A DNA stretch of 64,000 nt, from positions 1 to 64,000 of the forward strand of contig JAJFHX010000004.1 in NCBI GenBank assembly GCA_021775425.1. Reading direction: 5' to 3'. Position numbers and translations under genes: made by a program. The notes below the pieces were generated by a model, which worked only from the letters and a program-made list of their open reading frames with translations, was not told the origin of the DNA and searched no databases. Source of the DNA: Hyphomicrobiales bacterium. GTDB lineage: Bacteria > Pseudomonadota > Alphaproteobacteria > Rhizobiales > HXMU1428-3. Position 1 is the stretch's first letter. Every line of letters starts with the position of its first letter. Shown here in pieces: positions 1 to 17,298 of the stretch.

Positions 1-855
1 TAGATCTGCCAACATATGAACAGTCAGTGGAATTCTATGCTCACGTTTAGCTTTCATCCTATCAGCTGGAATTGTCCAGACAGCAGCGTCTAAATCAATT
101 TCTGACCATTGCGCTTTTAACAATTCGTTGGTGCGAACTGCAGTCATAATCAACAATCTAAGCGCTAGAGCAGACACACTTTTGTTTGCTGATAATTCAT
201 CCATAAAGGCTGGGACTTCATCATAGGGCATGGCAGGGTGATGACGGATTGTTTTCACCCGTGAAGGTTTAGGCAATAACATATCAAGATGGCCACGCCA
301 CCGAGCAGGATTTGACGTATCCCTGTATTTATGGGCTGCAGCGAAATCAAGAACATTTTCTATTCGCCCTTGCACACGTTTTGCGGTTTCTGTTTTTTCA
401 GTCCAAATAGGCGATAATATTTTCAAGATATCTTCAGTGGTGATCTTATCAACCAGCTTGATACCAATTACTGGCCTAGCATATGTTTTGAGAGTGCTTA
501 CCCACTGCCTGGCATGCTTGGCATTTTTCCACCCTTTGCGATGGGCTCTGATATAATTGGCAGCACAACTGGTAAAACATGGTATCTCCGCAACCTCAAT
601 CTTTCTGGTATCGATTGGATCAAAGCCATCACGCACTAGGTTTCGATATTCAGAAGCTTTTGCGCGAGCCTTTGATATTTCAATATCTGGATAACTACCT
701 AACCCCATTTCCCTCCGCTTGCCATTGAGAGTGAAGCGCAACACCCATTTTTTAGCCCCGGCTTCAGAGACAACCAGGCGGAGCCCAGCGCCATCTTCGT
801 ATTTACCAGCTTTTGCATTTTTAACTTGTCGAAATGATAATTTGTGAATGGCCAT
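1..855 (-). CDS. P4-type tyrosine integrase, C-terminus cut by window edge
   Basis: This frame is open from ATG at 855 to the window edge, giving 285 residues of a protein usually near 400. It is not listed in the ORF track because its stop lies outside. The N-terminus (MAIHKLSFRQVKNAKAGKYED, then GLRLVVSEAGAKKWVLRF) has the look of the DUF4102 arm-binding domain of P4-type integrases. A SAM-like core-binding region follows, and the catalytic domain begins with AVRTNELLKAQWSEID, which carries the first catalytic arginine. The remaining catalytic residues and the tyrosine lie beyond the edge. Integrases of this kind insert islands into tRNA 3' ends; a possible attachment site lies about 155 bp upstream. 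The family is clear; whether the gene is intact cannot be seen. Confidence 0.9.
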   Translation of the reverse strand, partial: MAIHKLSFRQVKNAKAGKYEDGAGLRLVVSEAGAKKWVLRFTLNGKRREMGLGSYPDIEISKARAKASEYRNLVRDGFDPIDTRKIEVAEIPCFTSCAANYIRAHRKGWKNAKHARQWVSTLKTYARPVIGIKLVDKITTEDILKILSPIWTEKTETAKRVQGRIENVLDFAAAHKYRDTSNPARWRGHLDMLLPKPSRVKTIRHHPAMPYDEVPAFMDELSANKSVSALALRLLIMTAVRTNELLKAQWSEIDLDAAVWTIPADRMKAKREHRIPLTVHMLADL

Positions 856-888
856 ATAAGAACAATCCAGCAGTGAAGACTGATGGCT

Positions 889-909
889 AGCCCCCCACTC
901 AGTCCCCCA
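889..909 (-). repeat. Possible integrase arm-type direct repeats
   Basis: On the minus strand two G-rich repeats, TGGGGGACT and TGGGGGGCT, lie 12 bp apart between the integrase start and the proposed att core. Similar short G-run repeats are common beside P4-type integrase genes. That they bind the integrase N-terminal domain is inference. Confidence 0.4.
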
Positions 910-1010
910 ATTATATTGGATTGAATGATATGACTACGGATGGTAATAATCAACAACTGTTTATTTTAAAAAGTATTTTCCAATAATATGGATGGCATAA
1001 ATAGTTATAT

Positions 1011-1039
1011 TGGCGGACTTCCTCTCCGCCAGTTTTTTT
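1011..1039 (+). other. Candidate att core: tRNA-Ser 3'-end-like sequence with inverted repeats and T-run
   Basis: TGGCGGA and TCCGCCA are perfect 7-bp inverted repeats flanking a 7-bp centre (CTTCCTC), followed by AGTTTTTTTA. The right part, CTTCCTCTCCGCCA, resembles the 3' end of many tRNA-Ser genes including the encoded CCA, and the T-run would fit the terminator of such a tRNA. The 7-7-7 geometry is also that of a tyrosine recombinase crossover site. I read it as the right end of an island extending leftward, with the intact tRNA-Ser expected outside the window. It could instead be only a plus-strand terminator. Confidence 0.45.
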
Positions 1040-1059
1040 ATAGTGAAACCATTCCCCAG

Positions 1060-1821
1060 TCAGGTAACGAATTTTATCAGTCCGGCAAGGTCTTTGCTGG
1101 TTGCGTCTGGTTTTGTGCCAAGTCGTTCTGGTTTGGCATTTAGTCTGTTGATCCAGATTGTCGGGTAGCCGAACCATTTTGCACCTGATGCATCCCAGCT
1201 TGCAAAGGCTGCAAAAGCTATTTTTTGTTTGGGCAGATTAAAGGCATCCACACCCAGCTGATACGCTATTGGATCTGGTTTATATGTTTTTATTTCATCA
1301 GTGCTTAATACAAAATCAAACAGACCATCCAAACCTGAGTTCTCAATGCCAGCATTTAACATGTTCGTCGTCATGTTTGATAAAAAGGCCAGTTTTATAC
1401 CTCTCGCTTTCAAGGATTGCAGCGTTTCCTTAACATCAGGCCAGGCCCTGAGCTGTAGAAATGCAGACTGGAACTTATCTATTTTTTCATCTGATGTTTG
1501 CAGGCCCATCTGACTGACAGCGAACAAATGCGCATCATTTATTAGGGTGTAGAAATCCTGGTATTGACCACCCAGCGCGCGCAGCCACTGATATTGGAAT
1601 AATCGACTTCTAAACAACATAAAAAATGCTTTTCCATTCGGCCCGTATAATTCACTTGCCAATTCGACAACTGGCCTTGGATCTAGTATTGGAAAGCCAT
1701 CAAATGCGATGGCCTCTATGTCGTTTTTTGCTGCCGCCTCAACTGTGGAAAATTCCGCAACTGTAGTGGCAGCGATACCTGCCGCTGTTAGTCCAATAAA
1801 CCGTCTTCGATGAAAATCCAT
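1060..1821 (-). CDS. Tat-exported HAD-superfamily protein, L-2-haloacid dehalogenase-like
   Basis: The protein has 253 residues. The N-terminus carries a twin-arginine motif (RRRFIG) and a hydrophobic stretch, so export to the periplasm is likely, which is unusual for this normally cytoplasmic family. The HAD core follows: FDGFPILD with nucleophile Asp41, SNMTTN (Ser148), KTYKPDP (Lys181) and SWDASGAKWFGYPTIWINR. The FRSRLFQYQWLRAL stretch matches type II haloacid dehalogenases. However, the threonine after the nucleophile and the SSN halide-binding triplet of that family are replaced, so true dehalogenase activity is doubtful and phosphatase-like or other activity is possible. It is divergent from the LysR gene, a common arrangement for a regulator and its target. 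Confidence 0.8.
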   Translation of the reverse strand: MDFHRRRFIGLTAAGIAATTVAEFSTVEAAAKNDIEAIAFDGFPILDPRPVVELASELYGPNGKAFFMLFRSRLFQYQWLRALGGQYQDFYTLINDAHLFAVSQMGLQTSDEKIDKFQSAFLQLRAWPDVKETLQSLKARGIKLAFLSNMTTNMLNAGIENSGLDGLFDFVLSTDEIKTYKPDPIAYQLGVDAFNLPKQKIAFAAFASWDASGAKWFGYPTIWINRLNAKPERLGTKPDATSKDLAGLIKFVT

Positions 1822-1982
1822 AGCTGCTCCAGTCAGGCAAAATAAGTTTACTTATCCTAATTTGAAAAAACAGTCTTTTATACAACCCACTGCGATTATT
1901 GACCTAACAATGAATTAACATGGCTAACAAACGAGTATAAATTGACCTATGGTTTAGTTATTCTAATCTGTAGGAGAAGGTT

Positions 1983-2891
1983 ATGCGGCCAACATTACCA
2001 CCACTGAAGGCTTTGCGATCTTTCGAGGCTGCTGCGCGCTTGCAAAGTTTCAAGCGAGCCGCAGAAGAGTTGAACGTGACACCTGCGGCCATTAGCCAGC
2101 AAATCAAAATATTAGAAGAGACTATCGGGCTGCGCCTTTTTCACCGGGAATATCAGGCGGTGAAGCTGACAGCAGCCGCGCGATTGATTTACCCTGATAT
2201 ACATGATGGTTTTGAGACTATGTTTCAGGCCATGAAGAAGCTCCGCAAGCAGCAGGAAAGGTCCGTTCTTAAAGTTGCCTCAGCTCCTGCTTTTGCTACG
2301 CAGTTACTGATCCCGGAATTGCATCATTTCAGAGTGGCTTCAGCAAGTGCAGAGACTGATGTTTATGTGATTGCGGCTCATGAAACTATAGATTATGACG
2401 CGCATCAAATTGACATTGGCATTCGCTATGGACGAGGAAACTATGCCGGGCTGACAAGTGAAAAGTTCCTTTCGGATAGTCTTTGCCCAGTTTGCTCACC
2501 TGAACTGGGGATGCTTTCTGATCAGACGGGGCAATTAAAACAATGGCCTAATTATCCATTATTGCATAATGACAGCCTTGATTTTGATCATACATTCCCT
2601 GGATGGCCTGAATGGTTAAGGCATTTCGGTTTTGCTGAAATTGATGGCACATTGGGATTGCGCTTTAATATTGCGTCTGATGCCATCACCGCGGCTGTGA
2701 AGGGGGCTGGCATATTACTGGCGCGGCAGTCTCTGATACGATCAGAATTGGCAGAGGGGAAACTCATGCGCCTTTTTGATTTAGACTTTCCACTTGAACA
2801 TGGTTTTCACCTTGTCTATCCAAAAGAAAATCTTGAAAGGGATGATGTCCTCTCATTTCGCAACTGGGTTATGGAGCGATTTGCAGGCTAG
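1983..2891 (+). CDS. LysR-family regulator, GcvA-like
   Basis: A LysR-type regulator of 302 residues, the usual length. Residues 5-65 form the winged helix-turn-helix (LKALRSFEAAARLQSFKRAAEELNVTPAAISQQI), and the opening PPLKALRSFEAAAR is typical of the GcvA/AmpR-like subgroup. The rest is a periplasmic-binding-protein-like effector domain. The start is supported by AGGAGAAGG just before ATG. It is divergent from the HAD gene across a 161-bp spacer, and precedes the SnoaL-like gene on the same strand by about 107 bp, so either could be its target. The effector cannot be deduced. Confidence 0.9.
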   Translation: MRPTLPPLKALRSFEAAARLQSFKRAAEELNVTPAAISQQIKILEETIGLRLFHREYQAVKLTAAARLIYPDIHDGFETMFQAMKKLRKQQERSVLKVASAPAFATQLLIPELHHFRVASASAETDVYVIAAHETIDYDAHQIDIGIRYGRGNYAGLTSEKFLSDSLCPVCSPELGMLSDQTGQLKQWPNYPLLHNDSLDFDHTFPGWPEWLRHFGFAEIDGTLGLRFNIASDAITAAVKGAGILLARQSLIRSELAEGKLMRLFDLDFPLEHGFHLVYPKENLERDDVLSFRNWVMERFAG

Positions 2892-2998
2892 TGGAAATCT
2901 GATGAGAATTATTGCGGGGTGTTCATGGCCGTGGTATCTGGAGCGAAACTCATCAACAGTTTAAGTTCCATGACTAAATTTACAGAAAGACCTCTTTT

Positions 2999-3427
2999 AT
3001 GAACGACAATGAAAGCCAATCTCGTATAGATGCCGCGAAGCTTATTCGTAGCTATTATGATGCGTTTAATGCTGGTGATACGGATGCCATGCTTGACCAC
3101 CTGACTGAGGATGTCATTCATGATGTGAACCAGGGCGAGCGGCGTTTGGGCAAAGAAAGTTTTCGTGCGTTTAACGCATCTATGACCCACAATTACAAAG
3201 AAACGCTGACAGAAATTACGGTGATGGTTTCTAAAGATGGCAGCCGGGCTGCTGCTGAATTTGTTGTTAATGGATCTTATATGAATACTGACAGTGGCTT
3301 ACCGCCGGCAACGGGACAGAAATATGTGTTGCCAGCGGGCACTTTTTTTGAACTGCGTGATGGAAAGATTTCCCGGGTTACGACTTATTACAATCTTGTC
3401 GACTGGACCAATCAGGTAACCGGCTAA
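2999..3427 (+). CDS. SnoaL-like / ketosteroid-isomerase-related protein (NTF2 fold)
   Basis: A 142-residue protein with the NTF2-like pattern: an N-terminal helix (LIRSYYDAFNAGDTDAMLDHL), then EDVIHDVNQGER and sheet segments ending in TFFELRDGKISRVTTYYNLVDW. It looks like the steroid delta-isomerase-related subgroup found with short-chain dehydrogenases. Such folds may be isomerases, hydrolases or non-catalytic ligand binders, so the reaction is not assignable. The ribosome site before ATG is weak. It ends 6 bp from the convergent SDR gene. Confidence 0.8.
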   Translation: MNDNESQSRIDAAKLIRSYYDAFNAGDTDAMLDHLTEDVIHDVNQGERRLGKESFRAFNASMTHNYKETLTEITVMVSKDGSRAAAEFVVNGSYMNTDSGLPPATGQKYVLPAGTFFELRDGKISRVTTYYNLVDWTNQVTG

Positions 3428-3433
3428 CCATTA

Positions 3434-4159
3434 TCAGTTGTTGAACATTTCACTCGCCATATTTTCCAGCTTTCTATAGTCATCTCTCCAAAGTGCGAAC
3501 ATTTCAGCGCCGGTTGGGTCGGGGAAGATATCGGCAACATCGCGCTCCAGCTCATCAAAGATGATTTTGGCCGTCGCTTCAGGGCTGGCTTTATCCATAG
3601 CGATGTCTTTCGTCATGTCTGTGTCGATTGGGCCGGGGTTGATACTGTGGACGTTTATGCCTTTTTTCTGCAACTCAATGCGGGCGCACTGGGTGATCGA
3701 AAATGCCGCCGCTTTTGAGGCACCATAACCGCCATGGAAAGGAAAATTCACGAATGAGGCGATTGATGCCACGTTGATTATTGCTGGCTCTGTTTTTGTC
3801 TCAAGCACGGGCACGAAGGCTCGCATCATTTTAAGAAGGCCGAAATAATTAACTTCCATATCATGCCTGATATCCGCCATCGGGCCGGTAAGTGCGCTGA
3901 CGAATGACAGGGTGCCCGCATTATTGACCAGCATATCAATGTCGTTTGCTGATATAGCTGCTTGTTCGATCTGGCTGTCATTTGTTATGTCCAGCTCAAG
4001 CGGTGTTATGCGACTGTCCGCATAATCTGGCAGGGAAGTTAAATCCCGGGCGGCTGCATATATTTTTTTCACACCACGATTTAATAGATCCGTCACCAGG
4101 GCTTTGCCTATGCCTCGGTTGCTGCCGGTGACGAGGACGATTTTGTTTTCAAAGTTCAT
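3434..4159 (-). CDS. Short-chain dehydrogenase/reductase (SDR)
   Basis: A classical SDR of 241 residues. The NAD(P)-binding glycine motif TGSNRGIG is at residues 11-18, NNAG near 79-82, and the catalytic set is Ser131 or Ser134 with Tyr145 and Lys149 (YGASK). It should be a soluble NAD(P)-dependent oxidoreductase with an alcohol, ketone or aldehyde substrate that cannot be predicted. It follows the isochorismatase-like gene on the same strand with an 80-bp gap that contains an inverted repeat just before this start, so co-transcription is possible. Confidence 0.92.
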   Translation of the reverse strand: MNFENKIVLVTGSNRGIGKALVTDLLNRGVKKIYAAARDLTSLPDYADSRITPLELDITNDSQIEQAAISANDIDMLVNNAGTLSFVSALTGPMADIRHDMEVNYFGLLKMMRAFVPVLETKTEPAIINVASIASFVNFPFHGGYGASKAAAFSITQCARIELQKKGINVHSINPGPIDTDMTKDIAMDKASPEATAKIIFDELERDVADIFPDPTGAEMFALWRDDYRKLENMASEMFNN

Positions 4160-4168
4160 TTACTGTGC

Positions 4169-4188
4169 TCCTGAATTAATTTTCAGGA
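4169..4188. repeat. Inverted repeat before the SDR gene
   Basis: TCCTGAA and TTCAGGA are perfect 7-bp arms around a 6-nt AT-rich loop, 9 bp upstream of the SDR start. It could be an operator or a leader hairpin; no T-run follows on the coding strand. Confidence 0.35.
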
Positions 4189-4238
4189 ACATTAAGCTCG
4201 CCACAGGCTGCACGCTGCCTCATTTTGTACATTGAATT

Positions 4239-4775
4239 TTATTTGATCAGTTTCACCAGTTCGCGAAAGTCTGGATGATCTGAATTTTTCAGCCATTCAA
4301 ATAGCACCATTTCTGTCGTGACCATTTCCGCGCCGTGTTTTTTCATGCGATCAACGGCGGCTTTTTTGCTGGCTTCTTTGCGCGATCCAATCGCATCCAG
4401 AACAACATAGACATTATGGCCTTTTTCCTTCAGACCCAGCACCGTTTGCAGCACGCAAATATGGGCTTCGCAGCCGGTCACGATGATGTCTCTCTGCCTG
4501 CCTCTAAAGTGATTTGCTATCTGTTCGGTTTGCAATGCATCAAAGTTTGTTTTGTTAAACAGAGTTGCTTCATCGCGCCTCAGTTCAGGCAATGTCTCAC
4601 CAATACCCTCTGGGTTTTGTTCGGTATAAACTAATGGAACATTTAACTTTACCGCCGCTTCAAGCAGGATGCCGGTGTTTTTAATCAGGTTTTCTGCGCC
4701 GCTGAGTGCCGGAACAAGACGTGATTGCATATCTATAATCAGCAATTGGGAATTACTGACTTCCAAAGTGGGCAT
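4239..4775 (-). CDS. Isochorismatase-like cysteine hydrolase
   Basis: A 178-residue member of the isochorismatase/nicotinamidase-like family, about the usual length. The catalytic triad is visible: Asp15 (LLIIDMQ), Lys75 (FNKTNFDAL) and nucleophile Cys107 (VTGCEAHICV). The compact form resembles YcaC-like and other short amidohydrolases rather than true isochorismatases, and the substrate is unknown. I start at MPTLEV, not at the track start 12 codons upstream, because GGAG sits at good spacing before this ATG (4775). It may share a transcript with the SDR gene downstream. Confidence 0.88.
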   Translation of the reverse strand: MPTLEVSNSQLLIIDMQSRLVPALSGAENLIKNTGILLEAAVKLNVPLVYTEQNPEGIGETLPELRRDEATLFNKTNFDALQTEQIANHFRGRQRDIIVTGCEAHICVLQTVLGLKEKGHNVYVVLDAIGSRKEASKKAAVDRMKKHGAEMVTTEMVLFEWLKNSDHPDFRELVKLIK

Positions 4776-5116
4776 GAAATATTCTCCGTTGTTCTTTGTA
4801 TTGTTTTTCACTCACTGTGAATTGTCTTTTTGTCTGGGGAACGCAGAACTTGCCAAATTTAACTAAGATTATTGGCTTTGATTGGTGTGAAATGCAAGGG
4901 CGGCTCGGGTTAATTGCGCTGATTTTATATAGCATGTTTGTTCGGCTTCAGGTTCTGAAAGCTTTTCTTTAATGCTGCGTAAGTTATTGTGATGCCCCAT
5001 AATTTTCTAATTTTTTGGTGTTTTTGATCTGGTCACTTGCACCTTCGCAGTGTATTTAGGGGCGTGTCTTTTTAAATTTTTCATTTTCATTTCCATATTC
5101 AACAGGGTTTGCTCCA
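4776..5116. other. Intergenic region between divergent genes
   Basis: This 341-bp AT-rich stretch separates the isochorismatase-like gene (minus) from the EamA transporter (plus). It must hold both promoters, but I see no convincing -35/-10 pair, operator or small gene. The track ORFs here are shadows. Confidence 0.5.
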
Positions 5117-5989
5117 TTGCAGGGTACGAATAAATTACTTGGCCTGATCAGTGCCGTTCTGGTCATTTTTATCTGGTCGGGGTTCATAGTATTTTCTCGT
5201 GCTGGTGTGACAACCAACCTGACGGCTTATGATGTCGCGGCGCTCAGATTTATGGTGGCCGGGGCTGCCGTGCTGCCGTTTGTGTATCGCTGGTGGCCGC
5301 GGCAATTGCCGTTAAATGGCCAAGTGATCATTATGATTTTTGGTCCGGGCGTACTTTATTCTATCTTGATGTATCTCGGGCTTACCAATGCCTCAGCTGC
5401 CTATGGCGGGGTTTTTGCCAATGGCTCTATGCCGATTTTCACGGTATTGCTTGGTTTGCTGATCGCTCATGACCGGCCCAGCAAAATACAGGTGATAGCT
5501 ATTCTGGTGATTGTGTTTGGTGGGTTGCTGGTTGGAGTGAAGGGGATGATGGCTGGCGGGCCGCACATTGTTTCCGGCATCATACTGTTTCTTTCCGCTT
5601 CAATGGTGTTGTCGATTTATCTTTTCAGTGTGCAAAGATACAATGTGAAACCAACACAGGCACTGGTGCTTGTGAACCTGCCGAATGCACTGTTTTTTAT
5701 TCCGCTCTGGTATTTTTTCCTCCCCTCCGGCATTCATGATGTGGGTTGGTCGACCATATTGTTTCAGGCGTTTTTTCAGGGGCTTGGTCCGGGCTTTTTT
5801 GCCATTATTTTTATTGCGCTAACAGCCATTCACTTAGGCTCAACGACCACGGCTGCGGTTTCAGCTTCTGTTCCGGCATTTGCCAGTATGCTGGCTGTGC
5901 CGGTGCTTGGGGAAGTGCCCTCGCTTATAGAGTGGTTTGGCATCGGGATTGTGTCTGCCGGGCTATTGCTGATGTTTACCAACCGTTAG
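5117..5989 (+). CDS. EamA-family (DMT) inner-membrane transporter
   Basis: A 290-residue, very hydrophobic protein with about ten membrane segments in two EamA repeats. The first repeat starts VLVIFIWSGFIVFSRAG and contains YGGVFANGSMPIFTVLLGLL; the second ends GIGIVSAGLLLMFTNR. Members export metabolites or amino acids, and the substrate cannot be predicted. The only start that keeps the first helix intact is TTG at 5117, with weak ribosome-site support, so the exact start is uncertain. It converges with the TPR gene. Confidence 0.88.
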   Translation: MQGTNKLLGLISAVLVIFIWSGFIVFSRAGVTTNLTAYDVAALRFMVAGAAVLPFVYRWWPRQLPLNGQVIIMIFGPGVLYSILMYLGLTNASAAYGGVFANGSMPIFTVLLGLLIAHDRPSKIQVIAILVIVFGGLLVGVKGMMAGGPHIVSGIILFLSASMVLSIYLFSVQRYNVKPTQALVLVNLPNALFFIPLWYFFLPSGIHDVGWSTILFQAFFQGLGPGFFAIIFIALTAIHLGSTTTAAVSASVPAFASMLAVPVLGEVPSLIEWFGIGIVSAGLLLMFTNR

Positions 5990-6024
5990 TTGGGTCGCTT
6001 TCAGAAAATTTTTCCGATACGCCC

Positions 6025-6072
6025 TTATAATTCCTGAGCTCTTATAATTCCTGAAATTTTTATAATTCCTGA
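6025..6072. repeat. Three direct copies of a 13-bp repeat
   Basis: TTATAATTCCTGA occurs at 6025, 6042 and 6060. The third copy forms the end of the TPR gene (Gln-Glu-Leu-stop on the minus strand). A near-identical copy (one mismatch) lies at 6768-6780, beyond the other end of that gene. Confidence 0.8.
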
Positions 6073-6692
6073 CCAGGGATCTCTATCAGCATGGAACGTT
6101 CGCGCAGGAAGGGGTGGATTTTAACCGCATCGCGCAGCACTTTCTGGCCAATGCGAGCGCGGCCCTGCCCCATTAATATCCGTGCTTTGCCAGCAAGAGC
6201 GCCAAAATGTTTCGGCTCTAAGGCGATGGCCTTATCCGTATCTGCAAGGGATTTATCATATTCTTCGCGCAGAAAATAAACAAAGGCGCGCTGGTTCCAG
6301 ACCTCGGCCCAGTCAGGGGCGTCTTTAGCAACCTGGTTGAGTATTTCGAGCGCGCCGGCATAATCATAGGTGCGGCGACGCTCCATGGCTTTGGCTAACC
6401 GGCTTGAGACATCTTCATTTGGGCCCTGCATCCAGAAACGCCAGATTTTTTCTTCTGCCGCTCGGGCTTCCCCTTCAGATTTGGCTGCCAGCAGATCAGA
6501 AAATAATAATTTGCGTTGCTCAGGGTCTTGATAATCAGCTGATTTAAGGGTTTTTTCTTCTTTTTTGATCAGCTGTAAGTTATTTGTATCAGCATTTGCT
6601 GGCGGCGAAAGCATGAGATGAGAGACGCTGAAAAAAAGGACCGTAAAAAAACTGAAGACCAGAGAGGATGGCAGGCGGAAAATCGTGGTCAT
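6060..6692 (-). CDS. Secreted TPR-repeat protein
   Basis: A 210-residue protein beginning with a signal peptide or membrane anchor (LPSSLVFSFFTVLFFSVSHL, then PPANADT). A charged helical region follows, then two or three tetratricopeptide repeats from about residue 100 (YDYAGALEILNQVAKDAPDWAEVWNQRA and EYDKSLADTDKAIALEPKHFGALAGKA). It is probably a periplasmic scaffold protein; the partner is unknown. I place the start at MTTIFRL (6692), which has AGGGAC upstream, instead of the longer track ORF whose extra residues are polar and would spoil the signal peptide. Its last codons lie inside a 13-bp repeat array. Confidence 0.82.
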   Translation of the reverse strand: MTTIFRLPSSLVFSFFTVLFFSVSHLMLSPPANADTNNLQLIKKEEKTLKSADYQDPEQRKLLFSDLLAAKSEGEARAAEEKIWRFWMQGPNEDVSSRLAKAMERRRTYDYAGALEILNQVAKDAPDWAEVWNQRAFVYFLREEYDKSLADTDKAIALEPKHFGALAGKARILMGQGRARIGQKVLRDAVKIHPFLRERSMLIEIPGQEL

Positions 6693-7010
6693 GGTATAAG
6701 TCCCTAGTTTGTTTCTATCGTTTCTCACTATTTTGATGGTCTGGTGCGTTTGTTAGTATAGTCACGCTTATAATTTCTGAATTCTCCCCACATCATAACA
6801 AAACCCGTTTACCACTCAAGATATTGCTCATAAACTTGCTGTGATGAGGCTGTGAGCGATGTGAAGGTTCGGTTTCTGATGCTATACTTTCACTGAACTG
6901 AAGGATTTGTGAAGCATCTGAACTATATAAATTTGGGGCCTTGCACATGGCTGATATGCCCTATAGATTGCCGCAACACCTGAAGCTTATTGTTGAGAGA
7001 ATTACTGACT

Positions 7011-7271
7011 ATGAAAGATTTTGAGGGCAGCTCGAAAGAGCATTTACGAGCCATTATTGAACGTGTTGAGCGCTTAGAAGAAGAGAAAAAAGCCATTGCA
7101 GATGATATTCGCGAAGTGTTTGCCGAAGCGAAAACAATGGGGTTTGATGTGAAAGCCGTTCGTTCTATTGTTCGCATGAGAAAACAGGAACCGCATGTGA
7201 GAGAAGAAGAAGAGGCCGTGCTTTCAACTTATATGGCGGCGCTTGGCATGTTGCCGCAGGAAGACGAATAA
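7011..7271 (+). CDS. gapR: GapR-family (DUF2312) nucleoid-associated protein
   Basis: An 86-residue DUF2312 protein, nearly the length of Caulobacter GapR. It has the family pattern of a long helix ([30 protein letters not shown]) followed by [16 protein letters not shown]. Known members form clamp-like oligomers on overtwisted DNA and help topoisomerases ahead of forks and RNA polymerase. I choose ATG at 7011 over the TTG at 6990 because it gives the usual family length. It precedes rsmB by 20 bp and may be co-transcribed with it. Confidence 0.9.
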
Positions 7272-7291
7272 TGCGGAAGACATACAGTTAA

Positions 7292-8644
7292 GTGGCGGGC
7301 CCTTCAAAACAGTCACTGCAACAAATAGCCGGATTGGCGCCGCGTAAGATCGTGGTTGACTGGCTTTTTGAAGTTTTTCACCGACAAAAACCCCTTGATG
7401 AGTTGTTTAGCAACAGTGAGGCCAGCCCGCTCTGGCAGGAGCTATCAGCGCGTGACAGGGGGTTTGCCCGCTCGATTGTAATGACGGTGCTGCGGCATAA
7501 GGGTGAACTAGACTGGATTGTTGCGCAATTTCTAAAAAAGAAACCGCAGGCGAAATCCAGAGTTTATGAAATTCTGCTTAGTGGTGCGGCACAGCTGTTG
7601 TTTATGGATGTTGAGCCGCATGCGGCCATTGACATGAGTGTCCGGCTTGCCAAAACTTCTGACAAATCCCGCCATCTGGCAAAACTTGTGAATGCGATTT
7701 TGCGTCAGATCAGCCGCGAAGGGGCATCACGACTTCAAACCCAAAATGGCGATGAACTGAATGTGCCCGCATTTTGGCGCAAGCGGTGGCGCGGGCAATA
7801 TGGTGAAGACTGTGCGGCGCGGATTTTAAAGGCGGTGCTGCAACCGGCGGCGCTTGATATCGCTGTGAAACAGGATGCTGCTGGATATGCTGAGAAACTT
7901 GACGGGGTTCAGTTGCCATTTGATATGGTGCGACGGGACCACCGCGGGCTGATCACGGAGCTTGAAGGTTTTGCAACCGGGGACTGGTGGGTACAGGATT
8001 TCGCTGCACATTTACCAACGCGTTTTTTCGGTGATGTCAAAGGATTGAGAGTTGCCGACCTTTGCGCGGCGCCCGGGGGGAAAACGGCTTCCCTTATTAA
8101 TCAGGGTGCTGACGTGGTCGCGGTTGATATTGCCAAAAACCGTCTCAAGCGTAGTGAAGAAAATCTGGTGCGTTTGCAGATGACGGCAGAAATCAAAACG
8201 GTGGATGTTCTTGAGTTTGAACCTGAGCAGCCTTTTGATGCCGTTCTGCTTGATGCGCCTTGCTCTGCCACCGGTACGATCAGGCGGCATCCGGATATAT
8301 TATATTTAAAAGATGAAAAGCAGATTTTTGAACTTGCCAGATTGCAACGCCAGATGCTGCAAAAATCGATTGAATTTATCAAACCTGGTGGCATCCTGAT
8401 TTATTGCACCTGCTCGCTTGAAAAAGAAGAAGGCGAGTTGCAGGTTGAGCGTTTTTTAAATGAAAACCCGACCGTTAAGCGTTTTCCTATTCAGGCTGAT
8501 GAGATTTTTGACCAGGCTGACTGGCTGACTGAACAAGGTGATTTAAGGCTTTTGCCGCATTTTACACCACCTTCTGTTGTGGAAAGTGATACCATTTCCG
8601 CTGGCATGGATGGGTTCTTTATCAGTAGATTGAGAGTTGGATGA
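7292..8644 (+). CDS. rsmB: 16S rRNA m5C methyltransferase RsmB
   Basis: 450 residues with an N-terminal NusB-like helical domain (about 10-145) and a C-terminal SAM-dependent RNA methyltransferase domain (about 155-450). The SAM motif DLCAAPGGKTASL is at 256-268, and two catalytic-type cysteines are present: DAPCSATG (Cys324) and YCTCS (Cys374), as in RNA m5C methyltransferases. By family it methylates the position equivalent to C967 in 16S rRNA. The start is a GTG. The order rsmB, heparinase-family gene, purH is common in alphaproteobacteria. Confidence 0.93.
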   Translation: MAGPSKQSLQQIAGLAPRKIVVDWLFEVFHRQKPLDELFSNSEASPLWQELSARDRGFARSIVMTVLRHKGELDWIVAQFLKKKPQAKSRVYEILLSGAAQLLFMDVEPHAAIDMSVRLAKTSDKSRHLAKLVNAILRQISREGASRLQTQNGDELNVPAFWRKRWRGQYGEDCAARILKAVLQPAALDIAVKQDAAGYAEKLDGVQLPFDMVRRDHRGLITELEGFATGDWWVQDFAAHLPTRFFGDVKGLRVADLCAAPGGKTASLINQGADVVAVDIAKNRLKRSEENLVRLQMTAEIKTVDVLEFEPEQPFDAVLLDAPCSATGTIRRHPDILYLKDEKQIFELARLQRQMLQKSIEFIKPGGILIYCTCSLEKEEGELQVERFLNENPTVKRFPIQADEIFDQADWLTEQGDLRLLPHFTPPSVVESDTISAGMDGFFISRLRVG

Positions 8645-8791
8645 TGTTGCGCCCTAAAATCTACATGATATCATCCTAGTTGAAATTGAATTGTTGAGTA
8701 TGAGCGCCCTTTTCGTATCTCTTCTGCGTAATGCAAGTGAGTATCACAGGGACGGGTTTCGTTTGTTGTAGCCGGGTAAATCAGTGCTTTC

Positions 8792-11509
8792 ATGGGTAAT
8801 ATTTTTAACCAGACACCAGCTTCACTTTCTACCTTGTCGAAAGCCAAGCGCGACCTTGCACTTGGTTTAAAGCGTTCTCCTTTGTTTAGCTGGCGATATG
8901 GCAGCCATAATGTACAGCAGCTTATGCTGGTACCGCGTGATTTGCGCACGGCTGACCCAAGCCTTTCAATCGAACTTGATATGGGCCAGTTTGGACTTGC
9001 GGGTGCAACTGTATTTCTCAATGGCGGGTCGCCGTTTCAGGCAGAGCCGCCCAACACAGCATGGCTGAAAGAATTACACGGGTTTAGCTGGGTGCGGAAT
9101 TTACGGGCGGCGCGAACTGACCGGGCGCAAGAGCAGGCGATGGAGCTGACCCGGGAATGGCTGACTGATTATAAAACCCAGAAAGGTATTGCCTGGGAGC
9201 CGGAAGTGGCGGCACGCAGGCTGATCAGCTGGTTGTCTCACTCGAATTTTCTGCTCTATGAAGCTGATGAAAAAGCCTATATCAACCTGATGGCGTCAAT
9301 TGAGGAGCATATGCGTTTTCTCTCAATGACCGGGATGCATGCCGCCAAAGGTATGCCGCGTTTGCTTTCACTTATTTCTCTGATGTTTGCCGGGCTTTGT
9401 GTGAAAGAACAGGAGAAATTTGCTGAGCAGCACCTAAAACTGATGTGCAACGAACTGGACAATCAGATCTTGCCGGATGGGGGGCATATCTCACGGGATA
9501 ATTCTGTGCTGGCGAGTATTCTACTTGATCTGCTGCCGTTAAAACAGTGCTTCGTCACCCGTAATATGACACCGCCCCAGCCTTTGCAGGATGCGATTAA
9601 CCGGATGCTGCCGATGATCCATTACATGCGGCTGGGTGACGGGTTGATGAGCCGGTTTAATGGCGCGGGGACAACACTGCCTGATACATTAAGCACGGCG
9701 ATGGCTTATGATGATGTATCGAACGCCCCCTTAAAAGAAGCGCCCTATTCGCGCTATTTCCGAATGCAGAAAGGCAATGTGGTGGTGCTAATGGATGGCG
9801 GGCCACCTGCGTCTCTTGAATTGTCGGCAAAAGCTCACGCGGGCTGTTTGTCTTTTGAACTTTCATCAGGCACCTGCCCGGTGATTGTGAATTGCGGTGC
9901 AGCGCCACCTGCATTTCAGACCATGTCAAGCAATGCACGGGCCACCGTTTCTCATTCAACGCTGACTGTCAACAATCGCTCTTCTGCTCAGTTTCATCAT
10001 GATCATAAGGTTAAGAACAGCCATATTCCAAGCCTGTTGAGCGGGCCGCCAACTGTCAAAGCCTGGTATGAAAAGGAAGCCGAAAAAGTCAAAATTATTG
10101 GCTCACATGATGGCTATCTGGATAATTTTGGTCTGATACATCATCGGTTGCTTTCGCTTTCTAATGATGGCTATACATTTATTGGTGAGGACTGGATTGA
10201 GGCGCTTGGCGGGAGTAACCCGGAGCAGAAACTTGGCTGGCCTTATGCGGTTCATTTTCATATACACCCAGATGTGGAGACCACGCGCAGCAGTGATGGC
10301 AAATCAATTACGTTAAAATTACCCGATAGCCAGGAATGGAAGCTTTCAGCGCAAGGGGCGATTATCTCGCTTGAAGAAAGCATTTTTTACGCTGATTTTG
10401 CCGGGCCCTGTCAATCTGTTCAGGCGGTGCTGCGGGGCAATTGTGTTGGCAATACCAGCATTTCATGGATGCTGGCCAAAGTGGTGCAAAGCCACTCAGA
10501 CAAACCGCCTAAAGTTCCTGAATGGATGGCTGAGAATGTTATTCCACTGGAAAAAGCCGCCGCGATTGCTGAAAAAGATGATGCGCCAGAAAAGAAAGAG
10601 AAAGAACCAGTTGAAGCTTCGGATGTGCCGCCACCGCCACCCGCGCGCAAAGTTGCTAAGGTCACTGAACTTGTTGAAGACATTGATGACGAAACAGGTG
10701 GGGGTGAGGATAAATCTGCAGGCGATGGACAGGCTGCACTTGATAAAGAAGATGTGCCGGCACTAGAAGCGCCACGATATGAGGACAGCAAGGCTGGTTC
10801 TGATAAGGATGGCACAGAAAAGAATGGCAATCGTGGCGATTTAAAAACTAAGCGGCCTGCTCGCAAAGATATTTTTGCCAAAGAAACAGACGAACGAAAA
10901 GATTTTAAAACGCCTGATGGCAAAGGCCCTCCTTCGCCGCCCCCGTCCCGAAAAACGCCTGCGCAAACTGACAAGAAACAGACTGATGCTGAGGATGAAG
11001 AAGGTAAAGATAATGACCGCTCAACTTCAGGTAAATCATCCTTAGAAAAACGTGCCACTCAGCCGCCTGCTTTACCTGCCAAAGGTGCACGTACAGCACG
11101 CACAGAGCCAGATTCTGAATTTTCTTCGGAAGCTGACATACCTTCCAGCAAGCCGAAATACCGTTCGCTTGAAGAGGCTTTATCGAGTGCGAAAGCGAAG
11201 GGTGGATATGATGATGATACACCGGCAGAGCAATCTGATAAGCCAGCCAAAAATGAAACGCCACCAATAGACGAACGCGCTGATGCTGTTCGGGCGAAGG
11301 CGGAGAAAATTCGCCAGCAGCACACTCGCTCAAAAAGTCAGAAACAAGGTTCACGAAAACCCGGGACTTCTGAAACAACTGATGAGAAGTCATTAGATAC
11401 GAAGTCTTTAGATACCAAGACAGTGGATGTGAATACTTCTCAGAAAAGCCGTGGTGAAAAAGATAAACCCCGGAAAGGTCCATGGAGTAAACCTGGTGAT
11501 GAGGAATAA
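8792..11509 (+). CDS. Heparinase II/III-family protein with a long charged tail
   Basis: 905 residues. Roughly 1-330 resemble the alpha-helical toroid of the family (WVRNLRAARTDRAQEQAMELTREWL, GGHISRDNSVLASILLDLL). Roughly 345-585 resemble the beta-sandwich heparinase domain (AHAGCLSFELSSGTCPVIVNCGA, SHSTLTVNNRSSAQF). Known members are polysaccharide lyases acting on uronic-acid polymers, and the alphaproteobacterial copy near purH has no firm substrate that I know of. From about residue 585 to the end there is an extra, apparently disordered tail rich in Lys, Asp, Glu, Pro and Ser, including VPPPPPARK, PPSPPPSRK and a KSLDTKSLDTKTVD repeat. No signal peptide is obvious. Confidence 0.85.
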   Translation: MGNIFNQTPASLSTLSKAKRDLALGLKRSPLFSWRYGSHNVQQLMLVPRDLRTADPSLSIELDMGQFGLAGATVFLNGGSPFQAEPPNTAWLKELHGFSWVRNLRAARTDRAQEQAMELTREWLTDYKTQKGIAWEPEVAARRLISWLSHSNFLLYEADEKAYINLMASIEEHMRFLSMTGMHAAKGMPRLLSLISLMFAGLCVKEQEKFAEQHLKLMCNELDNQILPDGGHISRDNSVLASILLDLLPLKQCFVTRNMTPPQPLQDAINRMLPMIHYMRLGDGLMSRFNGAGTTLPDTLSTAMAYDDVSNAPLKEAPYSRYFRMQKGNVVVLMDGGPPASLELSAKAHAGCLSFELSSGTCPVIVNCGAAPPAFQTMSSNARATVSHSTLTVNNRSSAQFHHDHKVKNSHIPSLLSGPPTVKAWYEKEAEKVKIIGSHDGYLDNFGLIHHRLLSLSNDGYTFIGEDWIEALGGSNPEQKLGWPYAVHFHIHPDVETTRSSDGKSITLKLPDSQEWKLSAQGAIISLEESIFYADFAGPCQSVQAVLRGNCVGNTSISWMLAKVVQSHSDKPPKVPEWMAENVIPLEKAAAIAEKDDAPEKKEKEPVEASDVPPPPPARKVAKVTELVEDIDDETGGGEDKSAGDGQAALDKEDVPALEAPRYEDSKAGSDKDGTEKNGNRGDLKTKRPARKDIFAKETDERKDFKTPDGKGPPSPPPSRKTPAQTDKKQTDAEDEEGKDNDRSTSGKSSLEKRATQPPALPAKGARTARTEPDSEFSSEADIPSSKPKYRSLEEALSSAKAKGGYDDDTPAEQSDKPAKNETPPIDERADAVRAKAEKIRQQHTRSKSQKQGSRKPGTSETTDEKSLDTKSLDTKTVDVNTSQKSRGEKDKPRKGPWSKPGDEE

Positions 11510-11667
11510 CGGGATGAACATCTGACTTTAATTCTGGTCTCTGAAGTTTGACAGACGGCAGTTTTGAGGATAGGCATTGGCCAAAGTTGAACAAAAGACG
11601 ATATAGCTGTGCGATTTGTTCAATAAACTGAAGAAAATGCCAAATTTTTCTTTGAATTTATTCGCCA

Positions 11668-11680
11668 TTTATTGAATAAA
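11668..11680. repeat. 13-bp palindrome upstream of purH
   Basis: TTTATTGAATAAA is a perfect inverted repeat about 80 bp before the purH start, with a related TTCAATAAAC nearby. It may be an operator for the purine gene, but I do not recognise the regulator. Confidence 0.3.
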
Positions 11681-11760
11681 CCCAGCAAGCTACTCAACTT
11701 ACTGACCCTTATATTGCGATTGTCATTCCCTTTAGCTGACTTGAAAGGCTGTAATTTTCT

Positions 11761-13344
11761 ATGAACCGTCCTATTGAACGCGCACTCATTTCTGTTTCTG
11801 ATAAAGAAGGCATTGTTGAATTTGCCAAAGCTCTTTCTGACAAGGGCATTGAACTGATTTCAACCGGGGGAACATCTGCTCTTTTAAAAGATGCTGGTTT
11901 GCCGGTGAAAGATGTGAGTGACATCACTAATTTTCCGGAAATGATGGATGGACGGATTAAAACGCTGCACCCTTCCGTTCATGGTGGCTTGCTTGCGATG
12001 CGGGACAACCCGGCGCATAAAAAAGCACAAGATGAGCATGGCATTCAGAATATTGATCTGCTGGTTGTTAATCTTTATCCGTTTGAAGAAACGATTGCCA
12101 AGGGGGCAGACTTTGAAACGGCGATCGAAAATATTGACATTGGTGGCCCGGCGATGATCAGAGCGGCGGCGAAAAATCATGATGGGGTTACTGTTCTTGT
12201 TGACCGTGATGATTACCAGCCGCTACTTGACGAGCTTTCTAATAATGACGGAATGGTGAGCGCTTCTTTTCGCAAATTTGCGGCGCAAAAAGCCTATGCC
12301 CGCACAGCGAATTATGATGCGGCGATTTCAAACTGGTTTGCGGGTGCGCTTGAGATTGAAGCACCAAAATGGGTCAGCATTTCAGGTGAGTTGTCTCAAA
12401 CAATGCGTTATGGTGAAAACCCGCACCAAAAGGCCGCTTTTTATACAACTGGTGACAAACGCCCGGGTGTTGCTACGGCTGAACAGGTGCAGGGCAAAGA
12501 GCTTAGCTATAACAACCTTAATGACACAGATGCAGCGATTGAACTTGTCGCTGAATTTGACCCGGCTATTTCGCCAGCGGTGGCGATTATCAAGCACGCC
12601 AACCCGTGCGGTGTTGCACTTGGAGAGAGCATTGAAGACGCTTATAAAAAAGCGCTTCGGTGTGACCCGGTTAGCGCGTTTGGCGGCATTGTTGCCCTGA
12701 ACCAGCCCCTGACCGAAGACGCGGCCCAGCTCATCACTGAGACATTTACTGAAGTTGTGGTGGCACCCGATGCGACAGATGGCGCGAAGGCGGTGCTTTC
12801 TTCTAAAAAGAATGTACGTTTATTGCTCACCCACAGCTTGCCATCACCTGCAGCACCGGGACATATGGCGAAAATTCTTTCTGGCGGGTTTTTGTTGCAA
12901 GGGCGTGATAATGGGATTGTCGAACAGCTAGACCTGAAAGTTGTGACCGAGCGCCAGCCAAGTGAACAGGAAATGGCTGACCTTAAAATTGCATTTAAAA
13001 TCTGCAAGCATGTGAAATCCAATGCAATTATTTATGTGAAGGACGGGGCGAGTGTGGGCATAGGTGCCGGGCAGATGAGCCGGGTTGACAGTTCACGCAT
13101 TGCCGCATGGAAAGCGGACGAAGCGGCGAAAACTGCCGGATTGTCGCAATCTTTGGCGATTGGTAGTGTTGTGGCTTCTGACGCATTTTTCCCGTTTGCT
13201 GATGGGTTGCTCACCGCAGCTGAAGCTGGGGCGACGGCCATTATTCAACCGGGTGGTTCGATGCGGGATGATGAAGTGATTGAGGCGGCGAACAAGGCCG
13301 GGCTTGCCATGGTGATGACTGGCATGCGGCACTTCAGGCACTGA
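11761..13344 (+). CDS. purH: Bifunctional AICAR transformylase / IMP cyclohydrolase
   Basis: 527 residues, the normal PurH length. The N-terminal MGS-like IMP cyclohydrolase domain (about 1-150) shows [31 protein letters not shown] and [17 protein letters not shown]. The AICAR transformylase domain includes [14 protein letters not shown] and the catalytic [11 protein letters not shown]. It performs the last two steps of de novo purine synthesis, formylating AICAR with 10-formyl-tetrahydrofolate and then closing the ring to IMP. The gene stands alone, 251 bp after the heparinase-family gene. Confidence 0.98.
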
Positions 13345-13389
13345 TTTTTGAAGACCTTTGTTTCGCAAAACTTCGTTTTCTCAGCTCCA

Positions 13390-14253
13390 TTAAATTGAAG
13401 CTTTGATGCCTTCTCTGTAGGTTGGATATTTTAGCTTCACGCCAAGCTCTTCTTTCATGCGCTTGTTTGAAACGCGTTTGTTGTCATTGTAAAAACTTTT
13501 GGCCATTGGTGAAAAGTCAGCGTCTTCAAATTCGATTAAGGGCGGGGTTTCAACGCCGATCAGTTCGGCTGCGTAAGCAAGGACATCCTGAGGCGGGGCG
13601 GGTTCATCATCCGCGATATTGTAAACCCGGCCCGGATTCGGGTTTTGGCACGAGGCTTCCAGAGCGGCCGCGATATCTTCCACATGAGCGCGGTTAAATA
13701 CCTGACCTTCTTTATGTATGCGCCTTGCTGTGCCTGATTTTATTTTAGAGACCGGGCCGCGACCCTTGCCATAAATGCCCGGCAGGCGAAATATATGTAC
13801 CGGGAGGGATCTGGTTTCATATAGCTCAAGCCACTGGTCTTCGGCTTTTTTTCGCCACGACGATCGCTCAGAGCCGGGGTTGGTTTCTGATGTTTCATCT
13901 ACCCAGGCGCCATCATGATTGCCATAAACACCGACAGTTGAGAGATAACCAAGCCATCGCAGATTCTCATTTTCGACGAGGTCTTCTTTATGATGAGCGA
14001 GGATGCGGTCACCATTTTCATCGGGGCTGATTGAGATGAGAATGTTTTCAGCTTTCCTGAGTAATTCTTTTAATTCTGCCGCCGGTTCGTGGCCATTAAA
14101 GATAATGACTTCTTCAGCGCCTGCCTCAAGGATCTCAGATTTTTTTTCTTCTTCTCTGGTGGTGCCCCACATATGTTCTGCCGGGTAATTCCGCATCATT
14201 GTTTTGGCTGTGTATCCGGCACCTAGCAATAACAGATTGTTTTTCTTATTCAT
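13390..14253 (-). CDS. NAD-dependent epimerase/SDR-like protein (YeeZ type)
   Basis: A 287-residue extended-SDR protein resembling the YeeZ group. The nucleotide-binding motif is [13 protein letters not shown] at the N-terminus. Further in are [17 protein letters not shown] and [17 protein letters not shown], and a substrate-side region ends [20 protein letters not shown]. The substrate is unknown. The start MNKKNN (14253) is preferred over the track start 4 codons upstream because GGAG lies six bases before it. The gene overlaps the 3' end of queG, which indicates translational coupling. Confidence 0.85.
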
Positions 14254-15397
14254 TTTCAACTCCATTTGCTGGTTGCGCCGGTGTATCGTGCCATTCTTTT
14301 ATGATGGCGGGGTCTTGTTCGGTTTTCAAGTATTGAATTTTTTTTGCCTGATAAGTTTCCTTATTTGCAAGACGGCCAAAGGCCCATATTGCTGAGGCAC
14401 GCACCATTGGCTCCGTTGCATTAAGGTGGGGTTCGACATTTTCCAATAGCTCAGCATCGTTAGAATTACCGGCTGCTATGAGGCAATTGCGCAGAAACCG
14501 GTTCAGGCCTGAGCGTTTAATCGGTGTGCCGGCAAATTTAGTCCTGAATGTGGTGTCGTTTAACTTCAGTAATTGTTTTAGCGCGGGCGTGTCAGTTTCT
14601 TCTCGTGCCAGAAATCTGGTCTCGTTCGCAGTTCTTGCAAATTTATTCCAGGGGCAAATGGCGAGGCAATCATCGCAGCCATAGATCCTGTTGCCAATTT
14701 TGGGTCTCAGCTCTTTTGGAATCGGGCCATTATGTTCGATTGTCAGGTAGCTGATACATCGTCTTGCATCAAGTTTATAGGGGGCCGGGAATGCGTTGGT
14801 TGGGCAGATTGTCAGACAGGCCTGGCAATTACCGCAATGGTCAATTTCAGCTGCATCCGGAACTAACGAGTGGGTTGTGAATATGGCACCAAGAAAGGTC
14901 CATGAGCCAAGGTCGCGGCTGACAAGATTGGTGTGTTTGCCCTGCCAGCCAATGCCCGCCAGCTGGGCGAGCGGTTTTTCCATCACCGGGGCGGTATCGA
15001 CAAAGACTTTAACCTCGGCGCTTGTTTCAGCAACAAACCAGCGGGCCAGTGCTTTCAGTTTTTTTTTGACGATATCGTGATAATCCTTGCCGCCCGCATA
15101 GACGGAGATAACGCCTTTTGAGGTTTGCTCAAGTTTGGGGAGAGGGTTTTCTTCTGGCCCGTAATTCATGGCCAGCATGATGATGGATTGTGTTTCCGGC
15201 CAGAGATTTTGAGGTGTCAGGCGCCGTGTTTTTTTGGCCTCCATCCAGCCCATGTCGCCATGCCAGCCGGCTTCCAGAAAAGATGTGAAGGCCTGTTGAT
15301 TGCGCAAGGGTAGTTCTTTCCCGGTGATGCCAACCAGGTCAAAGCCAAGTTCGATGGCTTTTAATTTTAACTCGGATTTCAGGGATGTATTGGTCAT
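14246..15397 (-). CDS. queG: Epoxyqueuosine reductase QueG
   Basis: 383 residues. The conserved cofactor-domain region includes VFVDTAPVMEKPLAQLAGIGWQGKHTNL. Two ferredoxin-type iron-sulfur motifs follow, CGNCQACLTICP and CDDCLAICPWN, and the C-terminus has HEAT-like helices. QueG is a cobalamin and 4Fe-4S enzyme that reduces epoxyqueuosine to queuosine in tRNA, the final step for the wobble base of Asp, Asn, His and Tyr tRNAs. It is the first gene of a two-gene minus-strand unit with the SDR. gluQRS, which further modifies queuosine in tRNA-Asp, is at 52.3 kb. Confidence 0.97.
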   Translation of the reverse strand: MTNTSLKSELKLKAIELGFDLVGITGKELPLRNQQAFTSFLEAGWHGDMGWMEAKKTRRLTPQNLWPETQSIIMLAMNYGPEENPLPKLEQTSKGVISVYAGGKDYHDIVKKKLKALARWFVAETSAEVKVFVDTAPVMEKPLAQLAGIGWQGKHTNLVSRDLGSWTFLGAIFTTHSLVPDAAEIDHCGNCQACLTICPTNAFPAPYKLDARRCISYLTIEHNGPIPKELRPKIGNRIYGCDDCLAICPWNKFARTANETRFLAREETDTPALKQLLKLNDTTFRTKFAGTPIKRSGLNRFLRNCLIAAGNSNDAELLENVEPHLNATEPMVRASAIWAFGRLANKETYQAKKIQYLKTEQDPAIIKEWHDTPAQPANGVENE

Positions 15398-15478
15398 CTG
15401 GTGCGAGCGTTAATCCTGAGAAATGTCCTTTAATTGTTATTCAGCATTATAGCATGTTGTAGGGGGTGAGCCTGCAAT

Positions 15479-16162
15479 TTAAAAATCAAGATTGGTATAG
15501 TGGGCGGGGGGAACGATGCCGGGGAAGCTGTCTTTTAATATGGGGCGGAAGCTTGGACGCGATTTAATTCGTGCGTACCAGTTTTTGACAAGTGGTGCCT
15601 TTTCCCAGGTGATGTCTCCTAAAAAATCAAGACATGAAAGATGAGCGGCTGCTGCCAGGTCTGCCATGCTCATATAGTCTCCGCCGATCCAGTAGCGTTC
15701 TTCAAGCAGGCGGCTGAGATAGGCCATGTGATTGTGCATGTTCGCCATGGCAGCGCGAATGGCCTCAGGGTTTGGCGGGTGACGGTGGACAAAAGGATTT
15801 TCAATACGTTCATAGGCCAGATATGACCAGACTTCGGCATGGAATTTCTGGTGGAACCAGTCTGACATGCGTCTGGTTTCGGCTTTGGCGAGAGGTTCTT
15901 CGGGGTATAGCTCGGGGACGACGTTGTCTGCTGCGAAAGGATTTGTTTCAAACAGATATTCGGTTATTGGTGTGATGCCGCATATGGCGGCATTGTCCAA
16001 TAGTAAAACCGGTAAGTTGCCGCCCGGATTGACAGCCAGAAACGGGGCGCGCCATTCCCATGGCTTTTCTTCTGCCAGTGACGCATCTATGCCATACTCA
16101 GCCAATAACAATCTGGCTGTCCTAGAGAAGGGACAGATTGAAAAATGTATGAGTTGACCCAT
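15479..16162 (-). CDS. Glutathione S-transferase family protein
   Basis: 227 residues with the two-domain GST layout. The thioredoxin-like N-terminus has a CPFS motif at Cys10 (HFSICPFSRTARLLL) and the cis-proline segment NPGGNLPVLLLDN. The helical C-terminal domain contains YWIGGDYMSMADLAAAAHLSCLDFLG. The cysteine suggests thiol-transferase or dehydroascorbate-reductase-like chemistry rather than classic conjugation. The substrate is unknown. It sits 81 bp upstream of queG on the same strand and may be transcribed with it. Confidence 0.9.
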   Translation of the reverse strand: MGQLIHFSICPFSRTARLLLAEYGIDASLAEEKPWEWRAPFLAVNPGGNLPVLLLDNAAICGITPITEYLFETNPFAADNVVPELYPEEPLAKAETRRMSDWFHQKFHAEVWSYLAYERIENPFVHRHPPNPEAIRAAMANMHNHMAYLSRLLEERYWIGGDYMSMADLAAAAHLSCLDFLGDITWEKAPLVKNWYARIKSRPSFRPILKDSFPGIVPPAHYTNLDF

Positions 16163-16494
16163 ATAGTTTGCTCCTTAAGGTATCTGGCATCAGGACAAAA
16201 TATAGATATTATCAAGACTTAACAAGCAGGGCTCGATTTTGTCACTTGGGAATCAAGGGATAGAGACAACAAATGTTGTTCGAAATCCGACCCTTTATGC
16301 TTTTTGGGGTTGATAATTAATGGCTTGCTTAACGCGTTCAGATGGAATACTCAAAATTCATGTCGAAAAACAGACATTATATATTTTTACCCGCCCTTTT
16401 TCAGGCTGTTATTCTGGCTCCTCTTCGGACTTTTAAGCAGGTTTTTTTTTGGGTAGCACGGCCTTTATAACGAAAAGTGTGAATGGAGTTTTTT
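16163..16494. other. Divergent intergenic region with a small palindrome
   Basis: This 332-bp region separates the GST gene from uppP. ACAACAAATGTTGT (16266-16279) is a perfect inverted repeat with a 2-bp centre and could be an operator. I see no small gene. Confidence 0.4.
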
Positions 16495-17298
16495 ATGCCA
16501 ATTGAACAATTGCTGATTTTGTCGATCATTCAGGGTTTAACTGAGTTCTGGCCGGTCAGTTCTTCAGGGCACCTTAATCTGGTCCACTTGCTGACTAACT
16601 GGCAGGATCAGGGGCCGTTGATTGATGTGGCAGTGCATTTTGGCAGCCTGTTTGCCGTGCTTATCTATTTCTGGCGTGACATTGTGATGCTGCTGAAAGC
16701 TTCGGTTGATCTGTTATGTTTCAGGATGAACAGGGAAGTGAAGCTTCTGTTGTTTCTTGTGGTTGCGAGCATTCCGCTGATGATCATCGGGTTTATCATG
16801 CTGAAGTCCGGTGTTTACAAGCAATTGCGCACTCTTGAAGTGATTGCTTTTGCTAATATTATTTTTGCACTTGTACTTTGGTGGTGTGATGTGCACCCGC
16901 CGTTAAAGCGTAAACTTGAAGATGTGACCATCAAGGATGCTTTGTTTGTCGGTATGATGCAGGTGATTGCGCTCATTCCGGGGGCATCGCGTTCCGGTGT
17001 GACGATGTCTGCTGCGAGATATCTCGAATTTGAACGGGTTGAGGCGGCACGGTTTTCAATGCTGCTGGCGATCCCTTCTATCTTAGGGCTTGGGCTTGGA
17101 ACGATTTATGAGCTTTATAAATCCGGTGATGCTTCCTTGCAGAGTGATGCGATTTTTGTTGGTGTGCTTTCTTTTCTTACCGCGCTGTTTTCAATCTGGT
17201 TCATGATGGCGTTGCTGCGGCGGATGACGATGCTGCCATTTGTGATTTATCGTCTGCTGCTTGGGGCCGTATTGCTTGGGTATATTTTTATAGCCTGA
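16495..17298 (+). CDS. uppP: Undecaprenyl-diphosphatase (BacA type)
   Basis: A 267-residue polytopic membrane protein with both signature regions: GLTEFWPVSSSGHLNL near the N-terminus and PGASRSG in the second half. UppP removes a phosphate from undecaprenyl diphosphate to recycle the lipid carrier for peptidoglycan and other surface polymers, and extra copies confer bacitracin resistance. I use ATG at 16495, four codons inside the track ORF, because GGAG sits six bases before it. A strong hairpin terminator follows. Confidence 0.95.
   Translation: MPIEQLLILSIIQGLTEFWPVSSSGHLNLVHLLTNWQDQGPLIDVAVHFGSLFAVLIYFWRDIVMLLKASVDLLCFRMNREVKLLLFLVVASIPLMIIGFIMLKSGVYKQLRTLEVIAFANIIFALVLWWCDVHPPLKRKLEDVTIKDALFVGMMQVIALIPGASRSGVTMSAARYLEFERVEAARFSMLLAIPSILGLGLGTIYELYKSGDASLQSDAIFVGVLSFLTALFSIWFMMALLRRMTMLPFVIYRLLLGAVLLGYIFIA

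Follow-up and report, generated by a model that had tools for sequence, protein, structure and literature searches.

Islands that carry a P4-type tyrosine integrase at a tRNA-Ser gene are exemplified by VPI-2 of Vibrio cholerae (PMC3014918). In ICEMlSymR7A, the integrase IntS needs five arm-type sites with the consensus TGKTGGTATC (PMC11963761), and islands that are split across scaffolds can be found with TIGER2 (PMC9580842). The element described here is a genomic island of this ordinary, already known kind. It shares with VPI-2 the tyrosine integrase, the tRNA-Ser target, the attL/attR direct repeats and the tRNA restored at one end; in contrast to VPI-2, its integrase is tRNA-distal and reads toward the tRNA. 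As in the IntS/attP system of ICEMlSymR7A, several short, probable arm-type sites lie around the core and near the integrase gene, whereas in ICEMlSymR7A intS adjoins attL and the five arm sites are of the TGKTGGTATC type. Like the split islands of TIGER2, its ends fall on different scaffolds and were recognised through a relative that has the tRNA and the right flank together, but they were paired by synteny and by comparing cores across the integrase family.

The window (the whole stretch of 64,000 nucleotides that we analysed) makes up the initial 64 kb of contig C24 (313,724 bp) in a draft genome of 50 contigs and 3.19 Mb, and its start is the start of the contig. Window positions 1-1031 are very probably the right, tRNA-distal end of an element integrated into the 3′ end of a tRNA-Ser(GGA) gene, because an 18-bp repeat, synteny with the congener G005, paired 12-bp repeats, the context of a T-run and a family-wide rule for the core all point to this reading (Table 1). 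The portions of the element that are represented comprise about 1.0 kb on C24 and 428 bp on contig C46, and no contig joins both ends.

Table 1. Features of the window, with the evidence for each
Feature	Position	Strand	Evidence
P4-type tyrosine integrase (first 285 aa; the contig start cuts off the C-terminus)	1..855	-	Pfam domains; 92% identical to the complete C2 integrase
Pair of tandem 12-bp repeats, probable arm sites of the integrase, AGCCCCCCACTC-AGTCCCCCAATT	889..912	+	Matching pair on C46; 12-bp phase is a family trait
Element-side core arm TGGCGGA	1011..1017	+	Differs from the tRNA copy on that side
Predicted 7-bp crossover overlap CTTCCTC	1018..1024	+	Identity with tRNA-Ser(GGA) starts exactly there; centre rule in relatives
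attR repeat of the tRNA-Ser(GGA) 3′ end, 18 bp, including TCCGCCA (1025-1031)	1018..1035	+	Exact match to C46:106338-106355
T-run GTTTTTTT	1032..1039	+	T-run after CCA in four congeners, none after the C46 tRNA
Conserved chromosomal right flank	6926..17298		Collinear homologues in G005 (L079:3693-15296), downstream of its tRNA-Ser(GGA)

The core site and its tRNA-Ser(GGA) partner

The original prediction had placed a leftward-reading P4-type integrase 155 bp from a 21-bp site composed of 7-bp inverted arms, a 7-bp centre and a T-run, with no complete tRNA in this region, and all of these features were found in the window. The minus-strand ORF encodes arm-binding, central and catalytic domains (PF13356, 1.3e-21; PF22022, 1.9e-30; and PF00589, 3.6e-9, respectively), and its ATG lies 155 bp from the core. 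The latter, at 1011-1031, is a perfect palindrome, TGGCGGA-CTTCCTC-TCCGCCA, followed by GTTTTTTT at 1032-1039. It occurs once in the window and had no match in 100 shuffles of the sequence, even with three mismatches permitted, while a tRNA search of the window returned no gene.

An intact tRNA-Ser sharing the terminal 15-20 bases had been expected elsewhere, and the search for it led to contig C46. The core half CTTCCTCTCCGCCAG has exactly one other perfect copy in its own genome, and an intact tRNA-Ser(GGA) gene (C46:106262-106351) ends with that copy. Window 1018-1035 and this tRNA have exactly 18 bp in common (CTTCCTCTCCGCCAGTTT), the core repeat being identical to the 3′ end of the intact tRNA. 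Because the shared identity begins exactly at the 7-bp centre of the core, this centre is likely the crossover overlap, a prediction that is directly testable. Contig C46 terminates 428 bp beyond the tRNA, and these final 428 bp also contain the start of a SulP-type transporter gene.

Like window 889-912, C46 carries a tandem pair, AGTCCCCCAACT-AGTCCCCAATTT, 56-79 bp past the tRNA. The repeats of the window and of C46 are both of the AGTCCCCCAA type, with a 12-bp phase and equal orientation, and lie near each element end; their arrangement makes them probable integrase arm sites. Among 42 integrase loci of the family, 22 presented upstream of the start codon a 10-nt stretch that was repeated exactly 12 bp on with at least 9/10 identity, whereas none of the other lags from 8 to 16 applied to more than two loci. 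The 12-bp phase of the arm repeats is a trait of this integrase family.

Regarding the mechanism, the two inverted 7-bp core arms are most likely binding sites of the integrase, whose N-terminal domain most likely also recognises the tandem 12-bp repeats. The enzyme would cut on either side of the 7-bp centre, and strands would then be exchanged between the element site TGGCGGA-CTTCCTC-TCCGCCA and the 3′ end of the tRNA. The outcome would be an intact tRNA on the left (attL, C46) and a palindromic copy on the right (attR, window). Were the element mobile today, its predicted excision products would be joined element ends with the sequence ...TATATTGGCGGACTTCCTCTCCGCCAGTTTAATC... and an empty site in which the tRNA-Ser reads ...CTTCCTCTCCGCCAGTTTTTTTATAG.

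Gene order in congeners and the two contig ends

In G005, tRNA-Ser(GGA) is preceded by DNA that matches C46 and followed by homologues of window 6926-17298 with their order kept. Since G005 joins the tRNA-Ser to the homologues of window 6.9-17.3 kb, C46 and C24 very probably flank one element, and the chromosome very probably ran from C46 to C24 with the element in between. The element had been proposed to extend to the left; the contig begins at the window start, but the tRNA end on C46 could be linked to it through this synteny. As to the empty site anticipated in a relative, G005 has the tRNA and the right flank together, but it lacks window 1040-6900, and the junction is too diverged to yield a base-precise site. 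The integrase is not kept at this place in relatives, given that the window integrase had no match at E ≤ 1e-60 in six of the seven congeners, G005 among them; G004 presented one partial match (46% identical) on another contig. Altogether, the C46 partner, the core copy and the G005 synteny bear out the idea that the tRNA-Ser-like site is the att core of an integrated element. Four further congeners (G002, G003, G004 and G007) carry a T-run directly after the tRNA CCA, as in window 1032-1039 and not as on C46, which agrees with the T-run probably being the original sequence 3′ of the tRNA gene. No orthologous right flank was found beside the tRNA in these four genomes.

Window 1040-6900 is absent at the corresponding place in G005 and constitutes further variable DNA. 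Because of this, the history of the right flank is not simple. The genes of this segment, located between attR and the conserved flank, encode a HAD hydrolase, a LysR regulator, a SnoaL-like protein, a short-chain dehydrogenase and an isochorismatase; the HAD and LysR genes also adjoin in G032 (L085:9407-11321).

The source genome contains a second copy of the integrase end, at C2:5594-6623 (minus strand), which is 89% identical to window 1-1031 and includes a complete integrase. Its core, in tRNA-strand reading, is TGGCGGA-CTTCTTA-TCCGCCA, and no tRNA with the centre CTTCTTA was found in the assembly. In this second element end (L076:5594-18690 on C2), the integrase is followed by copper-resistance-type genes; a KefB-like gene flanks the copy on one side, and genes for a P-type ATPase, a multicopper oxidase and an outer-membrane efflux-type protein flank it on the other, the KefB-like and copper-resistance-type names having been read from the sequences and not from a family search. 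With a second related integrase in the genome, variable DNA at window 1040-6900 and an interior that is missing from the assembly, the ends on C46 and C24 might derive from two elements inserted successively at one tRNA, in a tandem or composite array. We regard this as unlikely, since the repeats of the two ends match in type and phase, and the C2 copy has a different centre and a different neighbour, the KefB-like gene.

About 117 residues of the integrase (a length taken from the complete C2 copy) are missing from the window because C24 begins inside the gene, and the catalytic domain, complete in the C2 copy, is partial here. Neither the missing C-terminus nor the remainder of the SulP-like gene that starts on C46 was found on any contig of the assembly, and therefore the element could not be closed. 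An incomplete integrase with no matching contig end is what a dead remnant in an immobile element would also leave, a reading that we consider improbable. The frame is open through the first base of C24, which means that the gene is cut off by the end of the contig. Moreover, C24 starts where the C24 and C2 copies are most alike (95% identity over the first 100 bp), and assemblies typically break in such near-identical stretches, which makes a break likely at this point. A scan of viral contigs with the integrase as query revealed no relative, and a phage origin is therefore without support here.

Core centres and tRNA targets across the integrase family

We collected relatives of the complete C2 integrase from named genomes and from the order, in which 87 of 298 genomes had a match. 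In 26 out of 42 loci, a core with 12-14 of the 14 arm bases was located upstream of the integrase at a distance of at most 450 bp, compared with 1 out of 311 control stretches; the controls, taken from within and past the integrase gene, serve as a rough yardstick. For 27 loci, the 7-bp centre was compared with the tRNA genes of the same genome ending in TCCGCCA, in a table compiled by hand, and a tRNA with an identical centre was present for 23 of them. Where an antisense tRNA lay within 60 kb on the 3′ side of the integrase on the same contig, the centres were identical in all 13 cases, at distances of 6-22 kb; two of these 13 cores (L150 and L158), whose element-side arm is degenerate, were read by eye. 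The 13 pairs include Acidithiobacillus sp. YTS05, Bradyrhizobium sp. AT1 and Asticcacaulis sp. YBE204, and the centre in G217 is that of the window. This family-wide link between core centre and tRNA target is the most useful outcome of the analysis. As a rule for this family, the tRNA target can be read off the palindrome that lies upstream of the integrase, which offers a way to match island ends located on separate contigs. Here, a contig end has become a resolved island junction.

The same cores rule out an intrinsic terminator as the sole explanation of window 1011-1039: a 9-bp stem with a 7-nt loop, a T-run and a folding z of -4.45 against shuffles fit such a terminator, but a tRNA likeness arising by chance is extremely improbable given the 18-bp match to the intact tRNA-Ser 3′ end, the equal core at equal distance with the tRNA's own centre in related integrases, and two neighbouring genes on the minus strand, which leave no plus-strand transcript needing termination. 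While serving as a core, the segment may still incidentally terminate transcription.

In the usual arrangement of the family, the window included, the integrase is tRNA-distal and reads toward the tRNA. In six loci (L098, L099, L109, L145, L152 and L167), an intact tRNA-Ser instead immediately precedes the integrase and points the same way. For two of these tRNA-proximal loci, the far core was found as a direct repeat about 9.7 kb away in Sneathiella sedimenti (C5:201752 and 211466) and about 13.9 kb away in G237 (C6:1508968 and 1522889), the latter genome having additionally a distal-type pair 64 kb apart. Orientation formed no clades on the integrase tree (five changes for the six tRNA-proximal members, against a shuffled mean of 5.8), and therefore no single switch could be dated. 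Because both core arms equal the tRNA end TCCGCCA, it is conceivable, and we suggest only tentatively, that with symmetric arms the centre alone sets target and orientation, so that exchange of the centre would let the family shift among tRNA-Ser isoacceptors and flip direction. The two 92% identical integrases of the source genome have different centres, and both orientations are scattered across the integrase tree.

Sequence changes and further observations at tRNA-Ser genes

The 3′ end of tRNA-Ser(GGA) reads CCCTCTCTCTCCGCCA in the congeners and CCCTTCCTCTCCGCCA in the source genome, which also has a G where the congeners have an A on the opposite side of the T stem. Compared with seven relatives, this tRNA (L011:9263-9352, on C46 of source genome G000) is changed at T-stem/acceptor positions 50, 65 and 66, resulting in G-U pairs in the T stem. 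Two of the three changes fall within the predicted overlap, which counts against the integration model, and the third outside it; because of their position, these two may have arrived with an element. Transfer RNA ends with CTTCCTC also occur elsewhere in the order.

Another tRNA-Ser gene of the source genome, an intact tRNA-Ser(TGA) on C41, is followed by a distant P4-type integrase (26% identical) that is cut by the contig end (L014:5265-6628; C41:101264-102627), and this locus probably marks another island inserted at a tRNA-Ser. Finally, two repeated partial tRNA-Ser 5′ ends (GGAGAGGTGGCCGAGTGGGC...) are located directly upstream of the intact tRNA-Ser(GGA) in G005 (L079:1862-2073), and the C46 tRNA is likewise preceded by a similar partial repeat.
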